A stretch of DNA of 64,000 nt, from positions 597,501-661,500 of the forward strand of contig NZ_AP025696.1 of the NCBI RefSeq assembly GCF_027943725.1, given 5' to 3'. The notes below the pieces were generated by a model that saw only the letters and a program-made list of their open reading frames with translations, made no database searches and was not told where the DNA came from. Numbering within the stretch: the stretch's first letter is position 1; the number at the start of each line of letters is the position of its first letter. Below, piece by piece: positions 20,827-51,300 of this stretch. Made by a program: the position numbers and the translations under genes. The stretch comes from Nitrosophilus kaiyonis. Lineage in GTDB: Bacteria > Campylobacterota > Campylobacteria > Campylobacterales > Nitratiruptoraceae.

Positions 20827-21816
20827 TTGGAATGTCATAGGAGGAAAAAACTTTTTTATATAATTTTCCTCTATCTCTTTTTTTCATTCATAAACTTATC
20901 CCCTTTCATTTTAAAAGCTGATGCCCATATTTTCGTATATCATAGATTTGGAGATGAAAGATATCCTTCAACAAATACTTCAATAGAAGAACTAAAAAGA
21001 GAGTTTGAATATTTTAAAAAAAATAATTACAAAATAGTTTCATTAAAAAAACTTGTAAAATCAATAAAAAATAAAAAAGAGATACCAGATAATTGGATTG
21101 TTTTAACAATTGATGATGGATATAAAAGTTTTTATAAAAATGCTCTTTGGCTATTTAAAAAATATAACTATCCTTTTACTCTTTTTGTCTCTACAAAACC
21201 CACTGAAGAAAAATGGAAAGATTTTATGAGTTGGGATGAGATTAAAGAGTGTGAAAAATATGGTGAAATTGCCCTTCATTCGCATTCTCATCCGCATCTT
21301 ACACATTTAAGTGATAGTAAGATTAAAAAAGATACAAAAACTTCTATAACTATTTTTGAAAAAAATTTGGGTTATATGCCAAAATATTACGCTTATCCTT
21401 ATGGGGAGTATGATGATAGAGTGAAAAAGATTATAAAAAGTTTTGGATTTGAAGCTATATGTAATCAAAATATCGGTGCAATAAATAAAGATAGTGATAT
21501 TTATGATTTAGATAGAATAGCTTTGGTTGGAGAGATTAAAAATTTAAACTTTTTTCTAAAACTAAAACATTTAAATGCATTATGGATTGAGCCAAAAAAT
21601 TATCCAAAAAATGGTGTTTTAAATAAAATAAAAGTAAGAATTTTTGAAAACGTTAAAAAAGCACAAATTTATGTGACAGATTATGGCTGGAAATGGGTTA
21701 AAGTAAATAATGGATTAATAGAAGAAAATCTAAACTATAAACTAAAAAAGAGTAGAGTTAGAGTTATTATAAAGGTAAAAAATAGTAAAATTAATACGAA
21801 GATTTTGGTTAAATAG
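20827..21816 (+). CDS. Polysaccharide deacetylase (NodB domain) family protein
   Basis: This protein of about 329 residues has an N-terminal hydrophobic signal or anchor (LFYIIFLYLFFSFINLS). NodB motifs are VLTIDDGYKSF near residue 96 (Asp-Asp), ALHSHSHPHLTHLS near residue 147 (metal-binding His) and YAYPYGEYDDRV near residue 190. It probably removes acetyl groups from a cell-envelope glycan. The C-terminal 70 residues form a separate basic beta-rich region. The start is uncertain: the TTG at 20827 keeps the whole signal peptide. AGGAGG at about 20839 has no normal start codon after it. Confidence 0.8.
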   Translation: MECHRRKKLFYIIFLYLFFSFINLSPFILKADAHIFVYHRFGDERYPSTNTSIEELKREFEYFKKNNYKIVSLKKLVKSIKNKKEIPDNWIVLTIDDGYKSFYKNALWLFKKYNYPFTLFVSTKPTEEKWKDFMSWDEIKECEKYGEIALHSHSHPHLTHLSDSKIKKDTKTSITIFEKNLGYMPKYYAYPYGEYDDRVKKIIKSFGFEAICNQNIGAINKDSDIYDLDRIALVGEIKNLNFFLKLKHLNALWIEPKNYPKNGVLNKIKVRIFENVKKAQIYVTDYGWKWVKVNNGLIEENLNYKLKKSRVRVIIKVKNSKINTKILVK

Positions 21817-21961
21817 TTAGTAGTTGAGTGGTTAAGAGATTGAGTTGTTTAGTGGTTTTATGGCTAAGTTGTTGAATTGGCTAAAAACTACTCAACTATT
21901 TTAACTTTTTAACAACTCAACAAAAAAATCCACTTAACCATTTTAACCATTTTAACTAATT
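21817..21961. repeat. Heptad-periodic inverted-repeat element before frr
   Basis: The left arm (about 21817-21882) is built of degenerate TTAGTTG/GTTGAGT-like units 7-8 bases apart. The right arm (about 21886-21961) has units such as ACTCAAC and TTTTAAC, which are their complements. Folding gives one long imperfect stem-loop, with TTAG near the start of the left arm facing CTAA at 21955-21958. It ends about 10 bases before the AAGGAG of frr. It belongs with the similar elements near 22541, 29933, 40097 and 48260. Confidence 0.6.
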
Positions 21962-21979
21962 TACAAATAAGGAGTAAAG

Positions 21980-22540
21980 ATGGAGTTACAAGAAATTTAT
22001 GATTATGCAAGAGACCATATGCAAAAATCTCTTGAAGTATTAAAAAAAGATTTTAATACCTTAAGAACTGGTCGTGTCACTACAGCAGTAGTAGAAAATA
22101 TTAAAGTTGATTATTATGGAACACCAACACCTTTAAATCAAGCTGCAAGTGTTGTTGCTACTGATGCTACAACTATTGTAATCTCTCCATGGGACAAATC
22201 TTTACTTGGAGAAATAGAAAGAGCTATTCAAGAAGCAAATATAGGGGTAAATCCAAATAATGATGGAGAGCAGATAAAACTCTTTTTTCCACCAATGACA
22301 GTGGAGCAAAGAGAAGCTGAAGCAAAAAAGGCTAAACAGTTTGGTGAAAAAGCAAAAATTGCAATTAGAAATGTAAGACGCGATGCAAATGATAAAATCA
22401 AAAAGCTATTTAAAGAGAAATTAATAACTGAAGATGAAGAGAAAAAAGCGCTTGAAGAGATACAAAAAATAACTGATGAATTTGTTAAAAAAGTTGATGA
22501 TTTAGTCAAGGCAAAAGAACAAGAGATTATGAAAGTTTAG
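21980..22540 (+). CDS. frr: Ribosome recycling factor
   Basis: Frr splits the post-termination ribosome together with EF-G. The 186-residue length is typical. Motifs include [36 protein letters not shown] near residue 18 and the C-terminal coiled-coil region [25 protein letters not shown] precedes the ATG. It lies between two heptad-repeat elements and upstream of pyrE, an order seen in other Campylobacterota. Confidence 0.98.
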
Positions 22541-22672
22541 TCATTAGTCATTGGACATTAGTAATTAGTAACTGGTTTATTGGTTAATAGAGTTAAGAAT
22601 TTAGCTATAGTTTAAGAATTTAATACTTAATACATAGCATTTAATACCAATCCCAATGTCCAATGTCAAAAT
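22541..22672. repeat. Heptad-periodic inverted-repeat element before pyrE
   Basis: The left arm starts directly after the frr stop with TCATTAG and TCATTGG units every 7 bases. The right arm has TAATACC, CCCAATG and TCCAATG units. ATTGGACATT (22550-22559) pairs perfectly with AATGTCCAAT (22655-22664). The 14-mer TCCCAATGTCCAAT (22651-22664) recurs exactly at 30021-30034. The element stops a few bases before the AAAAGGAATATAAATG start region of pyrE. Confidence 0.65.
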
Positions 22673-29932: not shown

Positions 29933-30047
29933 GGTAATTAGTATATTGGTTATTAGTTATTGGTGATTAATTATTGGCAAAAAGCAAAATATTTAATATA
30001 CCTATAACCAATACACCAATTCCCAATGTCCAATATCTAATGACAAT
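29933..30047. repeat. Heptad-periodic inverted-repeat element before the HAD gene
   Basis: The left arm has ATTRGTN-like heptamers (ATTAGTA, TATTGGT, TATTAGT, TATTGGT, GATTAAT, TATTGG). The right arm has NCYAATN units (ACCAATA, CACCAAT, TCCCAAT, GTCCAAT, TCTAATG). The arms are near-complementary across a short A-rich loop. It ends before AAAAGGATATAAATG, the start region of the HAD gene. The right arm shares a 14-mer with the element before pyrE. Confidence 0.65.
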
Positions 30048-30061
30048 TTAAAAGGATATAA

Positions 30062-30694
30062 ATGATTAAATATCTAATTTTTGATATGGATGGGACTTTG
30101 ATAGATAGCTCAGAAATTATCTCAAATTCCATAAATTATGTTAGAAAAAAATTAAATCTAGAGCCTTTACCAAAAAAAGTGATCATTGAAGCTGTAAATG
30201 ATCCATATTTAAACAAACCTAAATTTTTTTATAATGCAAATGAATATACTAAAGAGCAGATTGAGTGGTTTAGAGAATATTATGCAAAAAATCATAAAAA
30301 TGAGGTATTTGTATTTACAGGTATAAAAGAGTTATTAGAGGATATAAAACCTTATTTTAGACTATCTTTGGCAACAAATGCATATAGATCTTCTGCAATG
30401 GAGATTTTAACTCATCTTGATCTATTAAAATATTTTGAAATAGTAGTGTGTGCAGATGAGGTAGAAAATCCAAAGCCAGCACCAGATATGATTTTTAAAA
30501 TAATAGATTTTTTCAAATGTAAAAAAGATGAAATTTTATTAATTGGCGATGGAAAAACTGATGAAGAAGCAGCAAAAAATGCAGGGATTAAATTTTTGAA
30601 AGTGAACTGGGGATTTAGCGATTATAAAGATGCCTTAAATAGTGTAGAAGAGCTCAAAAATTATCTACTATCAATAAATAAAAATTCTAAATAG
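30062..30694 (+). CDS. HAD-family phosphatase (phosphoglycolate phosphatase-like)
   Basis: This 210-residue HAD hydrolase has motif I FDMDGTLIDSS at the N-terminus, motif II in LSLATNAYRSS near residue 103, and motif IV LLIGDGKTDEEAAKNAG near residue 160. VENPKPAPDM near residue 137 gives the conserved Lys. It resembles Gph, which removes 2-phosphoglycolate, but HAD substrates are hard to predict. The last 8 bases overlap the end of the convergent dgt gene. Confidence 0.8.
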   Translation: MIKYLIFDMDGTLIDSSEIISNSINYVRKKLNLEPLPKKVIIEAVNDPYLNKPKFFYNANEYTKEQIEWFREYYAKNHKNEVFVFTGIKELLEDIKPYFRLSLATNAYRSSAMEILTHLDLLKYFEIVVCADEVENPKPAPDMIFKIIDFFKCKKDEILLIGDGKTDEEAAKNAGIKFLKVNWGFSDYKDALNSVEELKNYLLSINKNSK

Positions 30695-39858: not shown

Positions 39859-39863
39859 ACTCC
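39850..39863 (-). terminator. Likely terminator of the SRP RNA gene
   Basis: GAGTC-TTTA-GACTC is a perfect 5-bp stem with a 4-base loop. On the minus strand it directly follows the SRP RNA and is followed by TTTTCTAATTT. It overlaps the queF stop codon on the other strand, so it may act for both directions. Confidence 0.55.
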
Positions 39864-39963
39864 CCTCCAGATACCCGCGGCACACAGCCATCGAAGGTGC
39901 TCTGCTGCGTTCCCGCCCTGAAGCTTTGCCTCCAATGGCTGTTGCACGGGTCTGAAGAGGAGC
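39861..39963 (-). ncRNA. ffs: Signal recognition particle RNA (4.5S-type)
   Basis: Read on the minus strand, the sequence folds as a long hairpin. CCTCTTCAGACCCG at the 5' side pairs with CGGGTATCTGGAGGGG at the 3' side, and CAGCCAT pairs with ATGGCTG. The tip holds TCAGGGCGGGAACGCAGCAG, which is the SRP core with the Ffh-binding symmetric and asymmetric loops. Size is about 103 nt. It is the last member of the tRNA cluster. Ends are approximate. Confidence 0.85.
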
Positions 39964-39997
39964 ACTCAAAGCACTAAATGCTTTCAATGCTCCTCTT
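39955..39997. repeat. Hairpin between tRNA-Ser and ffs
   Basis: AAGAGGAGCA (39955-39964) pairs with TGCTCCTCTT (39988-39997), with an inner AAAGCA/TGCTTT stem (39968-39973 with 39979-39984). The first strand is also the 5' strand of SRP RNA, so the two folds compete. It may be a processing site between the tRNA and SRP RNA. Confidence 0.55.
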
Positions 39998-40000
39998 GAG

Positions 40001-40088
40001 CGGAGAGAGAGGGATTCGAACCCTCGAAGGGCTATCAACCCTTACACGCGTTCCAGGCGTGCGCCTTCAACCACTCGGCCATCTCCCC
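40001..40088 (-). tRNA. tRNA-Ser (anticodon GGA)
   Basis: The minus strand reads GGGGAGATGGCCGAGTGG at the 5' end and a GGGTTCGAATCCC T-arm. The anticodon loop CTGGAAC gives GGA. It has the long variable arm of a type II tRNA. Acceptor GGGGAGA pairs with TCTCTCC with one G-U. CCA is not encoded. Confidence 0.92.
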
Positions 40089-40096
40089 TTTATAGT

Positions 40097-40169
40097 TTTA
40101 AGAGTTAAGCGCTAAGCGCTAAGTAATTTTTTAATCTACTTAATGCTTAATTCTTAAATCTTAATGCTA
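40097..40169. repeat. Heptad-periodic element between two tRNA-Ser genes
   Basis: Left units include GAGTTAA, GCGCTAA and GCGCTAA again in exact tandem, then GTAATTT. Right units are ACTTAAT, GCTTAAT, TCTTAAA and TCTTAAT. The right units are complementary to the left, giving an imperfect stem. It shares the 7-base periodicity with elements at 21817, 22541, 29933 and 48260 but lies between tRNA genes. Confidence 0.55.
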
Positions 40170-40172
40170 ATA

Positions 40173-40264
40173 TGGCGGGGAGGCAGGGATTCGAACCCTG
40201 GGTGGGCTCATCACCCACGCCGGTTTTCAAGACCGGTGCATTAAACCAGCTCTGCCACCTCCCC
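40173..40264 (-). tRNA. tRNA-Ser (anticodon TGA)
   Basis: The minus strand begins GGGGAGGTGGCAGAG. Anticodon loop TCTTGAAAA gives TGA. A long variable arm and GGGTTCGAATCCC T-arm follow. Acceptor CCTCCCC pairs with GGGGAGG. Discriminator G and CCA are encoded (plus-strand TGG 40173-40175). Confidence 0.93.
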
Positions 40265-40281
40265 ATTGGAGATGAGAGGTT

Positions 40282-40356
40282 TGGAGGCGGCACCCGGATT
40301 CGAACCGGGGATCAGAGCTTTGCAGGCTCCTGCCTTAGCCACTTGGCTATGCCGCC
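40282..40356 (-). tRNA. tRNA-Cys (anticodon GCA)
   Basis: The minus strand begins GGCGGCATAGCCAAG. Anticodon loop CCTGCAAAG gives GCA. T-arm CCGGTTCGAATCCGG. Acceptor GGCGGCA pairs with TGCCGCC. T discriminator and CCA are encoded. Confidence 0.94.
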
Positions 40357-40465
40357 CTATTTTTTTATTTAAAATATTTGACTAATATTAGCCTTTTAAA
40401 TATTATTTTTTCAATTAACCTATGTAAGAAAATCTTCTACAAGCAGTTGTCAAAAAAATTCCATA

Positions 40466-40552
40466 TGGTGCCCGAGGCCGGACTTGAACCGGCACGGAGA
40501 AACCTCCGAGGGATTTTAAGTCCCTTGCGTCTACCAATTCCGCCACCCGGGC
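40466..40552 (-). tRNA. tRNA-Leu (anticodon TAA)
   Basis: The minus strand begins GCCCGGGTGGCGGAATTGG. Anticodon loop ACTTAAAAT gives TAA. It has a long variable arm. T-arm GCCGGTTCAAGTCCGGC. Acceptor GCCCGGG pairs with CTCGGGC. A discriminator and CCA are encoded (40466-40468). Confidence 0.94.
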
Positions 40553-40554
40553 GA

Positions 40555-40647
40555 GAAAAAGCAAAAGCTTTAGCTTTTAGAAAGCAAACTGCTTTGCTTT
40601 CGGCTTTTTCGAGGCTGTTTTGATGTGTATACTTGCACCAAAACAGC
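40555..40647. repeat. Array of strong hairpins between tRNA-Leu and tRNA-Gly
   Basis: Three nested or serial inverted repeats lie here. GAAAAAGC (40555) pairs with GCTTTTTC (40603-40610). Inside it are AAAAGCT/AGCTTTT (40563-40578) and GAAAGCAAA/TTTGCTTTC (40580-40601, perfect 9-bp stem, CTGC loop). GCTGTTTTG (40614-40622) pairs with CAAAACAGC (40639-40647). They may guide tRNA precursor processing or form a small RNA. No coding frame fits. Confidence 0.55.
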
Positions 40648-40677
40648 GGGGCACCTATTTGAACATTATATTAAATC

Positions 40678-40752
40678 TGGAGCGGGAGACGGGATTCGAA
40701 CCCGCGACCCCAACCTTGGCAAGGTTGTGCTCTACCCCTGAGCTACTCCCGC
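40678..40752 (-). tRNA. tRNA-Gly (anticodon GCC)
   Basis: The minus strand begins GCGGGAGTAGCTCAG. Anticodon loop CTTGCCAAG gives GCC. T-arm GCGGGTTCGAATCCCGT. Acceptor GCGGGAG pairs with CTCCCGC. Discriminator T and CCA are encoded. It is the first RNA of the minus-strand cluster and diverges from ilvD. Confidence 0.94.
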
Positions 40753-47174: not shown

Positions 47175-48262
47175 AAAAATGGCTTAAAATACTGATTTTT
47201 TTGGTGATTATTGTGCTTTTAATTGTTGGTGCGGTTAGACTAGTTAAAAAGAAAAAAGCTCAGCTTGCATCTACTCCTATTGCTAAAGAGTATGCTGTAG
47301 TTGTAAAAACATTTAAACCTATTAAAAAGAGTCTAACTCTTACAACTTCTTATATATCATTAGTTAAAAATGATATAAACAGTGTAGTTTCTTCAAAATT
47401 TCCTGGGAGAGTTTTATATGTAAAAAAAGAAGCAGATTTAGTTAAAAAGGGAGATGTTGTAGCAAAAATAGATGATACAAATCTAAAAACAAAACTAAAC
47501 TCACTAAATTTACAAATAGAATCAACAAAAAATGAAATCTCTTCAACAAAGACTATCTTAAATAATCTTTATAAAATTCATGAAAGAACGCAAAAACTTT
47601 TAAAGGTAAAAGGTGCTTCAATCGAGCAGTATGAAAAAGAGCAAAACCAAATAGAAGCTACAAAAGCAAAATTATCAAACTTACAAGCAAAATTATCAAG
47701 CTTAAAAGAAAGCATAAAAGAGATAAAAAATGAGCTAACTTATGCAACTTTAAAAGCAAATATTGATGGAGTTGTAGCAAAGCAGTTTTTACATATTGGC
47801 GATTTAGCAATGCCAGGACATCCAATATTGAAGATAAACTCAGATAAAGGAAATTATCTTTTAGTTAGAGTTCCAAAAGATATAGATATTTTTGGAGTAG
47901 TTTATAAAAATAAAATATTTCCTGTAAAAAAGCTAAATTCTACATTTAACTCATTAAATGAGTATAGAGTTGATGTTAAAGATAAAGATTTAGTTGAAGG
48001 TCAAAGAGTAGATATTGATGTTATTACTTATAAAGGAGAAGCAATTTTACTTCCAAAAGACACTATTTTAAATAGAGATGGAAAAAGCTATGTTTTAGTA
48101 GTAAAAGGTGATAAGGCTGAGCCAAAAGAGATAAATATAGTTACAAACTCTCAAGATGGAGTTGTAGTAAAAGAGGATTTAGAGGGTGTTAAATTGGTGG
48201 TTGCAAAACCAGATATTTTATTGAAATTATTGAGTGGAATAAAATTGAAAGAGACTAAATAG
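47171..48262 (+). CDS. RND efflux periplasmic adaptor (MFP) subunit
   Basis: This 363-residue protein has one N-terminal membrane anchor (LKILIFLVIIVLLIVGAV). A lipoyl-like half is GRVLYVKKEADLVKKGDVVAKID near residue 78. A coiled-coil hairpin covers residues about 100-195, and the second lipoyl half is LKANIDGVVAKQFLHIGDLAMPGHPILKI near residue 196. It links the RND pump to the TolC-like duct. Confidence 0.9.
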   Translation: MKKWLKILIFLVIIVLLIVGAVRLVKKKKAQLASTPIAKEYAVVVKTFKPIKKSLTLTTSYISLVKNDINSVVSSKFPGRVLYVKKEADLVKKGDVVAKIDDTNLKTKLNSLNLQIESTKNEISSTKTILNNLYKIHERTQKLLKVKGASIEQYEKEQNQIEATKAKLSNLQAKLSSLKESIKEIKNELTYATLKANIDGVVAKQFLHIGDLAMPGHPILKINSDKGNYLLVRVPKDIDIFGVVYKNKIFPVKKLNSTFNSLNEYRVDVKDKDLVEGQRVDIDVITYKGEAILLPKDTILNRDGKSYVLVVKGDKAEPKEINIVTNSQDGVVVKEDLEGVKLVVAKPDILLKLLSGIKLKETK

Positions 48263-48357
48263 TAATTAGTAATTGGTGTATTGGTTATTAGTATTTATTA
48301 AGATTTTTTGAGATTTTTAAAACCAATATACCAATACACTAATACACTAATAACCAA
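48260..48357. repeat. Heptad-periodic inverted-repeat element before the RND gene
   Basis: The left arm has TAGTAAT twice, then TGGTGTA, TTGGTTA, TTAGTAT. The right arm (48320-48357) has CCAATAT, ACCAATA, CACTAAT, ACACTAA, TAACCAA. The arms are complementary over about 35 bases with a short T-rich loop. It ends before AAAAGGATATTTAAATG, the start of the RND gene. Confidence 0.65.
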
Positions 48358-48371
48358 AAAAGGATATTTAA

Positions 48372-51300
48372 ATGTTTGAATATTTTTATAAAAGACCATA
48401 TCTACTATTTAGCTTGATTGTTGGCTTTTTTGTGATGGGGATTATTGGTTTAAAATCTCTTCCTAAAAATCTATTTCCTGATGCAAATAGACCGCAAGTT
48501 GTGGTAATTACTTCAATTCCAGGAGCTACTGCAGAGGTTGCTGCAAGTACTGTTAGTAAGCCAATAGAAGAGGAGATTAGTAGAATCAGCCTTGTTAGAG
48601 ATGTATCAAGCATAAATGTTGCAAACTTTTCTATAGTAAAGGCTGAATTTGAATATGAAAAGGGGCTTGAAGCAGCTGCAGTGGATGTAGCAAATGCTTT
48701 GTCTATAGCTAAAAGTAAACTACCTAAAAATGCAAATCCATCTATTTATACAGTTGGAGATTTTACGCTTCCTGTTGAAGTTGTAGCACTCTCTCCAAAA
48801 AATAAAAATATAAGTTTAGCGGAGATTAGAAAGATTGCAGAATCGCATATAAAACCATATCTCTTAGCAAATCCTCATATAGGAAATGTTGAGGTTTTTG
48901 GCGGGTATCAGAGTGCGATAAATATAGAAGTTGATCCATTTAAAGCAAAAAAATATGGTATTAGTTTTGATAATTTAGCAAAAGCTCTTTTTGCAATCAA
49001 TAAAGATATTCCTATTGGTTTTACTAAAAGTAAAGATAGCTTTTATACTGTTACATTTTATGGTGAAAAAGATAATATTGAAAAATTAAAAAATATTAAT
49101 ATCTTGCCAAATGTAAAACTAAGTGACATTGCAAAAGTTAGCTGGAGTTATAAAAAAAGAACAAGTGGCTATCTTGGAAATGGAAAAAATGCAATTGCCT
49201 TGTCTATTCAGAGAGCTCCAGCTGGAAGTGTTTTAGATGTTAGTGATGCTGCAAGAATAGAGATTGAAAAACTAAAAAAGCTATATCCAAATATAGATTT
49301 TCAAATAGCTGACACTCAAAGGGATTTAATAGAGACTGCAAATACTAATATGCTTGAAGCTTTAAGAGATGCAATTATCTATACCCTTTTAGTACTACTT
49401 TTCTTTCTTGGAAATTTTAGAGCTATAATTGCTGCTGGTATTTCTATACCACTTGTTTTCTTTGGAACTATAGCAATTATTTGGCTAACTGGAGGTGAAT
49501 TAAATATTGTTATCTATACAGCAATAATTCTTGCTCTTGGAATGCTGGTAGATGATGCAGTTGTTGTTCTTGAAAATATTGAAAGGCATCTTGAGCTTCA
49601 CGAAGATATGCAAACAGCTATCATTAAAGGGACAAAAGAGGTTTTAGGACCTGTATTTGCAGGAACAGTTGGTACAATTGCTATTATTTTTCCACTGATG
49701 TTCGTTGGAGACTTTCCACAGCATATATTTAGACCGCTTATTTCAACACTAATTATTGCTCTGCTTGTGAGCTATTTTTTATCTATTACATTTATTCCAA
49801 GATTTTCTGCTGTCCTTTATAAAAATGGAACAGGCAAAACAAAGATAGAAAAATGGTTTGAAAAGGTTTATGAAAATTCATTGGGACTTTTAATTGGTCC
49901 ATATCTTAGCGTTATAAAATTTTCTAATGGAAAATGGTGGGCGCTAAGAAGAATGCTTTTAACTGCTGCAGTTGTTTTAACTTTTATATTGAGTTTAAAA
50001 AATGTAATGCCTCTTATTGGCAAAGATGTAATGCCTCCTATGGATACAGGAATTATTAAAGCGCAAGTTGCTTTTAGTGCAAATGAGACAGTTGATGATG
50101 CTGAAAAAAAACTTAAAAAGTTTCTAACTTGGCTTCATAAACAGCCTTGGGTAAAAACAAGCTCTGTTGCTTTTGGTAGTGAATCTGGAGTTTTAAGCCT
50201 TGGAAGTGGAAATCTTCCAACTGAAGCAACAATTACAATAAATGCTGTAAATAGATTTGAAAGAGATAAGAGTATTTGGGAGCTTGAAAATATTATTAGA
50301 GATGAAATTGCAAAACTTCCTGGAGTTAAGAAAAATGATGTATTTGATTTTGGAGCAACAGCTCTTTCTACTATAAAAGCGCCACTTGATATAAGAATAA
50401 AAGCAGCCGATTATGAAAAACTACCAGACATTGCAAAAGAGATAATTGATGAAATTAAAAATATAAAAGGATTAACCTCTATTAGCCAAAGTTGGGATAA
50501 AGATTTTAGTGAAGTAGAAATAAAAATAGATACAAACAAAGCTTTAAGCTATGGTATAACACCACTTCAAATTGCTATGCAAATCCCAATTAAAGGTCAA
50601 ATTGTGTCACTTGCAGCAGATATGGCTACTATGAATACACAATTTGTAAGACTATATCTAAAAGGAAAATTTAATGAAAATATACAAAATATAAAACTTC
50701 TTCCAATAAAAACAAAATTTGGTGAAATTCCACTTGCTGAGTTTGCAAAAATCTCTTATAAATTAACTCCAGCTAAAATTGAAAGAGATAAGCTTTTATA
50801 TAGTGTAGATGTAAATGGATATAGATCAAAAAGAGCTGTTACTCATATTACAGAAGATGCCAATAATGCTTTAAAAAATGTAGATACAACGGGATTTATA
50901 GTAACACAAGAAGGAGATATAGCTCAACTAAATGATAGCTTTAAAAGAATGATAAAAGCGATATCAATAGGTGTAATTATTTTAATAATGACATTAACTG
51001 CTATATATGAATCTGTTCGTCTTGCAATTATTATGATTTTGGTATTGCCACTTTCTATGATAGGGGCTGCTTGGGGCATGATGCTATTTGACAAACCAAG
51101 CTGTATGCCAAGTATGGTGGGACTTTTGCTTCTATTTGGAATAATTATAAAAAATGCAGTTTTATTAATTGACTTTTATAAAGAGTATAAAAAAGAGGGA
51201 GAGCCTCCATTTAAAGCTGCTCTAGAGAGTGTTAGAGTCAGATTTAGACCTGTTATGATGACAGCTTTTGGAACAATAGCAGGTATGATTCCAATAGCAT

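Follow-up and report, generated by a model that had tools for sequence, protein, structure and literature searches.

Results

The window, a stretch of 64,000 nt at positions 597501-661500 of contig C1 in the closed genome of the deep-sea bacterium Nitrosophilus kaiyonis (G000; 1,769,550 bp), contains frr and pyrE, the former with Nitratiruptor MAGs as its nearest named relatives (84-95% protein identity), and several of its gaps are filled by arrays of short repeat units. Gene boundaries were taken from a simple longest-ORF caller and ARAGORN, and individual start codons may be off. A preliminary description had claimed five such elements, all of which are present. Copy 1 (21814-21968, + strand) starts at the TAG that terminates the upstream gene and ends right ahead of the frr ribosome-binding site; its G-arm contains GTTGAGTG/GTTAAGAG..., its C-arm ...CCATTTTAACTAA, and the frr ribosome-binding region AAATAAGGAGTAAAG (21965-21979, + strand) follows directly. 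The word AAATA is also found just 5' of this copy (21811-21815), a possible 5-bp duplication in one single case. Copy 2 (22538-22666, + strand) begins with the frr stop codon, TAG, and reaches almost to the pyrE ribosome-binding site, and copy 3 (29933-30044, + strand) lies in a divergent gap 5' of the gene at 30062. Copy 4 (40097-40169, no strand assigned) separates two tRNA genes on the minus strand (40001-40088 and 40176-40264), inside a minus-strand cluster of a small SRP RNA and five tRNA genes (39861-40752). Copy 5 (48260-48352, + strand) begins at the TAG with which the upstream gene ends and stops ahead of the ribosome-binding site that serves the gene at 48372.

The elements had been described as heptameric, with units of the ATTRGTN type. 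The 7-bp period holds for copies 2, 3 and 4 (lag-7 identity 0.54, 0.51 and 0.62), whereas copy 1 is octameric (21817-21979; lag-8 identity 0.52 vs 0.33 at lag 7), copy 5 mixes periods 7 and 8 (lag identities 0.43 and 0.50), and copy 4 is composed of TTAAGNN and not ATTRGTN units. The exact 14-mer reported for two copies is TCCCAATGTCCAAT, common to copies 2 and 3, and an exact 18-mer is common to copies 3 and 5. Four of the five copies end within about 20 nt of a ribosome-binding site, while copy 4, between tRNAs, precedes none. An Rfam search of the window gave no match to the elements.

Across the whole genome, three consecutive ATTRGTN units (two or fewer mismatches) were matched 463 times, against 27 matches to the backward pattern, and in 400 kb of sequence that is 92% coding, 101 of 105 matches were intergenic. 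Genome statistics were drawn from 784 kb of the 1.77 Mb, sampled as stretches, and the periodicity survey from 464 kb, with a threshold at which shuffled gaps of 70-400 bp pass about 1.6 times per period. Strong 7- or 8-bp periodicity was present in 58 of 160 gaps of this size, period 7 in 47 and period 8 in 23 (about 1.6 expected for each). Period 9 was weakly raised (8 gaps vs 1.2 expected), periods 5 and 6 were at chance, and 0-3 coding control segments passed per period. Over 784 kb, periodicity was present in 103 of the 258 gaps measuring 70-500 bp, so that the genome may hold roughly a hundred or more elements, or about 200 such gaps by extrapolation. The search for further copies that had been suggested therefore returned many, and the original observation is real and genome-wide. 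Comparison with shuffled sequence, also suggested earlier, showed stronger folding for the periodic gaps as a class than for the other gaps (mean z -2.94 vs -1.52, p = 1e-4); copies 1-5 of the window gave z of -2.0, -1.7, -1.9, -3.3 and -3.8, and copies 1-3 are therefore individually weak as folds.

On the strand as read, a G-containing, C-poor array is followed by a C-containing, G-poor array, and the G-rich arm preceded the C-rich arm in all eight triplet-hit clusters having both arm types. The 7-bp units include ATTRGTN, GGAATTN, TTAAGNN and TTCGTAA, and the 8-bp units include GTTRARTN, GTTAGAAA and GAAGCNGN. An arm matches its own partner better than the arms of other elements (score 30.5 vs 20.1, p = 1e-7). 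Exact inverted matches inside one element are short, all below 20 nt in a set of 87 elements, and in about a quarter of the elements the arms consist of differing unit types and do not pair. Exact 20-mers are common to 145 element pairs, a count that takes in some pairs sharing a 172-nt repeat (see below), vs 0-2 once the sequences had been shuffled as 14-bp pieces. With this repeat masked, the pairs with a common 20-mer in codirectional gaps numbered 65 (sense-sense) and 23 (sense-antisense). The order of modules was constant in 166 of 175 informative comparisons (166:9). The element at C1:181773-182150 is interrupted by an inverted repeat of another kind, about 190 bp long and including CTGAAAAATTAC...; in the sister genome G003, a heptamer element (L135:13765-13888) encloses a stretch that resembles it, CTGAAAAATTACAAAG...CTTTGTAATTTTTCAG.

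Six unit classes in codirectional gaps follow the direction of transcription, with 89 motif hits vs 3 and 38 gaps vs 3, hits that are not independent because blocks are common by descent. One word, GTGGAATAG, is short and found in coding sense strands; leaving it out, the count is 72 vs 2. The replichore is not supported as the cause of this orientation, since the units at lagging-strand genes also follow transcription (14 vs 2; small numbers). The bias is weak in G003 (11:5), and the bias in G000 may therefore be partly inherited from a small number of founder blocks. Among the element gaps there is some excess of codirectional ones (75 of 103, compared with 70 of 122; p = 0.018). Capture of TAG stop codons was considered and rejected, as TAG is not clearly commoner before elements (28 of 89) than before other gaps in the same size range (28 of 99).

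The frr and pyrE gaps, about 150 bp in G000, are reduced to a few bases or to overlapping genes in several relatives. The gap 5' of frr measures 58 bp in G003 and comprises at most a few bases in several Nitratiruptor MAGs, with relatives L015 and L020 reading CAAATAAGGAG and carrying no insert, and the gap 5' of pyrE measures -1 to 5 bp in L013, L015 and L017-L021. The elements are thus inserts placed after a stop codon and ahead of the ribosome-binding site that follows, and other operon gaps in G003 are likewise short where G000 holds an element. The frr-pyrE gap of two further loci, L009 and L014, holds a sequence resembling the 172-nt repeat. Copy 3 is partly kept in the sister loci L114 and L115 and missing from L118 and L119. 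For 30 element gaps there is an orthologous gap in G003. Of these G003 gaps, 7 measure at most 45 bp, 15 are longer without an element and 8 contain one; in most of these 8, sequence similarity is at the level of random elements, while ordinary gaps of the two genomes align well (65.7 vs 19.1). The elements turn over faster than the remaining intergenic DNA.

In four congeners the ATTRGTN pattern was counted 0, 21, 65 and 6 times. A four-unit pattern occurs in 28 of 298 Campylobacterota genomes, spread over 12 of 58 genera; just five of the 298 reach 28 four-unit matches or more. Within the phylum, G000, G024, G026, G045 and G269 are rich in elements and G001, G043 and G059 poor. Other genera (G024, G045, G005) carry 7/8-bp arrays of their own, often with the same G-arm-then-C-arm polarity. 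Genus g35, where the dispersed pattern is missing, has long and perfect arrays of ATTAGTG, with one or two in each genome (G112:C1:1833463-1833573 and G085:C1:1526304-1526414, among others).

Pairing that is kept for the structure of an mRNA should tolerate G.U far more than A.C mismatches. In 55 heptamer/octamer hairpins read in mRNA sense, G.T mismatches numbered 102 and A.C mismatches 98. A dispersed 172-nt repeat with about 20 copies in G000 (C1:348976-349147; L156:1501-1672) was used as a positive control, an imperfect one as its pairs come from a multi-copy alignment, and gave 33 wobble vs 4 A.C mismatches, which indicates that the test is able to detect selection on RNA structure. The even counts in the hairpins therefore do not support selection for an RNA hairpin. 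The proposal that a leader hairpin controls translation is disfavoured by this result, and further by the non-pairing arms of about a quarter of the elements and by the window copy that lies between tRNA genes.

An alignment of 24 copies of the 172-nt repeat supports a multi-helix structure with compensatory changes in 13 of 35 pairs, and because of these changes, together with wobble far above A.C, the repeat is probably a structured RNA. A search of Rfam with the repeat gave no match. It is present in 12 of 41 genomes, all within the window's family, and often sits inside heptamer elements; further copies lie at L184:8994-9333 and L185:7241-7411 and in L186 and L187. In two relatives, G008 and G012, genes for RT-Cas1 fusions (L184:6049-8202 and L185:4384-6663) have 172-nt repeats within about 1 kb downstream, and the fusion in L185 (G012) adjoins a Cas10-like gene. 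The reverse transcriptase beside the repeat is thus the RT-Cas1 fusion, and the adjacency is probably incidental.

The survey of mobilising enzymes in G000 covered PF00078 (reverse transcriptase) and PF01797 (Y1/RAYT transposase), and neither family had a match in the genome. Mobilisation of the RAYT/REP kind is ruled out by the missing Y1 transposase, and an origin as a retroelement-derived repeat by the missing reverse transcriptase.

Discussion

Short heptamer repeats are known as STRRs, a name used for Calothrix, and REP/BIME elements are short intergenic palindromes mobilised by RAYT (Y1) transposases. Like REP/BIME, the elements of N. kaiyonis are present in many short, self-complementary intergenic copies, but they are built of 7/8-bp units with no fixed palindrome, in a genome without a Y1 transposase. 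Compared by description, the family fits with the known degenerate heptamer repeats and is STRR-like. In the P6b region of the Nostoc tRNA-Leu intron, degenerate heptanucleotide repeats pair into a hairpin and vary in unit number, with extra indels (PMC3488679). Similar to these and to cyanobacterial STRRs, the genome studied here has degenerate 7-bp units in many copies and, as in P6b, arms that can pair into a hairpin, although the arms of about a quarter of its elements lack pairing. In contrast to both, it mixes 7- and 8-bp units, places them in intercistronic gaps and not inside an intron, and has an ordered vocabulary that follows transcription, with no RNA-level selection detected.

Other heptamer families share part of this picture. 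TAACTGA repeats of Beggiatoaceae, some Cyanobacteria and Bacteroidetes consist of one exact unit in direct repeats, with no predicted structure and a single indirect repeat (PMC4679880). They too are 7-bp, intergenic, located before start codons, patchy among relatives and without a known mobilising enzyme; the units in N. kaiyonis differ in being degenerate, of many types (mainly ATTRGTN, TTAAGNN and octamers) and arranged in inverted arms, and TAACTGA was met only incidentally in this genome (gap 56154). The available part of another report (PMC4692102) describes GGGAATC / GGGGA(T/C)T heptamers of Xanthomonas and Nostoc as intergenic, in some cases inverted, and widely variable in length and sequence between close species, features seen in our family as well; these units are G-rich and G-quadruplex-forming, and that part of the report describes neither ordered modules nor orientation with transcription. 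It also cites three heptanucleotides in Calothrix and GTGATTA in Helicobacter pylori, of which the ATTAGTG of genus g35 is the cyclic equivalent. Given this Helicobacter case, as cited there, and the arrays in several g35 genomes, the statement that such repeats are undescribed in Campylobacterota was not quite right. The fixed order of words and the orientation relative to transcription look new. So far, heptamer repeats have been described in scattered reports (cyanobacteria, Beggiatoaceae, Xanthomonas, one Helicobacter case), and there is no agreement on how they arise. N. kaiyonis offers a dense set of comparable elements together with sister species lacking them at the same gaps, so that slippage, mobility and RNA function can be tested against each other, and the G-to-C arm polarity, module order and transcription bias act as constraints on any explanation.

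We propose, with a probability of about 0.55, that the elements are STRR-like repeats, which have grown through unit-wise slippage together with template switching and are tolerated where they lie in gaps. Passive replication slippage and a link to cyanobacterial STRRs had both been raised in the preliminary description, and they fit the data best. In the mechanism that we infer, a short seed in an intercistronic gap would be lengthened as slipped-strand copying added complete units of 7 or 8 bp, and fold-back or template switching would supply the complementary arm and, with it, the G-arm-then-C-arm polarity. Later, template switching or recombination at shared words would carry blocks from one element to another, and host replication and repair enzymes would be enough for both growth and copying. 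Elements would survive only where the gene stays intact and the ribosome-binding site uncovered, a limit that would lead to filled stop-to-ribosome-binding-site gaps and rapid turnover. The nearness to ribosome-binding sites is largely explained in this way, as mostly a reflection of where inserts survive in short intercistronic gaps. The only direct hint of unit-wise change comes from a phage family outside N. kaiyonis (L210, L211, L222, L235, L261, L281, L290, L293, L295), in which a gene is preceded by an (ATTRGTT)n array and two of the alleles are a single 7-bp unit apart. Pure slippage predicts neither the orientation with transcription (89:3) nor the module order (166:9), which counts against it. 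Our confidence is only moderate, mainly because the slippage model does not cover the transcription bias, and given this bias an RNA role or a mobilising enzyme may still be involved.

A constant module order is what a non-autonomous mobile element, MITE-like or of a BOX-like modular kind, would leave if a founder of fixed order had been placed into many gaps by an enzyme and had then decayed through deletions and unit slippage. Long shared blocks that cross the element centre (for example in gaps 57987 and 181773), the strong species-specific amplification (463 matches vs 0-65 in four congeners) and the possible AAATA duplication at frr point the same way. However, aligned filled and empty pairs show neither fixed terminal repeats nor a consistent target duplication, and the two enzyme families surveyed are missing, so we consider this origin possible at best and rather unlikely. 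It is also unlikely, in our estimation, that the elements are a transcription-oriented modular family with 7/8-bp words that are met again in many unrelated bacteria and phages, a family that would spread without transposase or reverse transcriptase, by copying tied to intercistronic sites, such as through microhomology of stop codons and ribosome-binding sites.

A functional RNA within polycistronic mRNAs, either an intercistronic structure or a low-complexity spacer that affects stability, processing or downstream translation, would be in keeping with the orientation, with the location between stop codon and ribosome-binding site, with the modest excess in codirectional gaps and with the better folding. 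We nevertheless regard it as distinctly unlikely: the hairpins show no wobble bias where the structured 172-nt repeat does (102 vs 98 against 33 vs 4), about a quarter of the elements have non-pairing arms, neither sequence nor presence is kept at orthologous sites, and the window elements have no Rfam match. Terminal repeat addition at double-strand breaks, with G-rich units added to each 3' end before joining and hence a G-arm and C-arm on both strands, would account for the polarity even where the arm units differ (for example in gaps 336840 and 107459), but is highly improbable, as the genome has no reverse transcriptase, the arms usually match each other above chance, the transcription bias is left unaccounted for, phage contigs with TTACGAA arrays show both polarities, and no bacterial enzyme of this kind was identified in this analysis.

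Viral contigs were also considered. A universal ATTRGT vocabulary was rejected there, with 99 stretches vs at least 120 for the reversed pattern, which overlaps the same arrays and is therefore of no use as a control. Three exact TTACGAA units occur in 46 stretches of viral contigs (IMG/VR, L410-L454), vs 3 for the reversed heptamer; the arrays are found in contigs of 29 to 67% GC and are mostly intergenic, many of them running from a stop codon to the next start, with both hairpin polarities represented.
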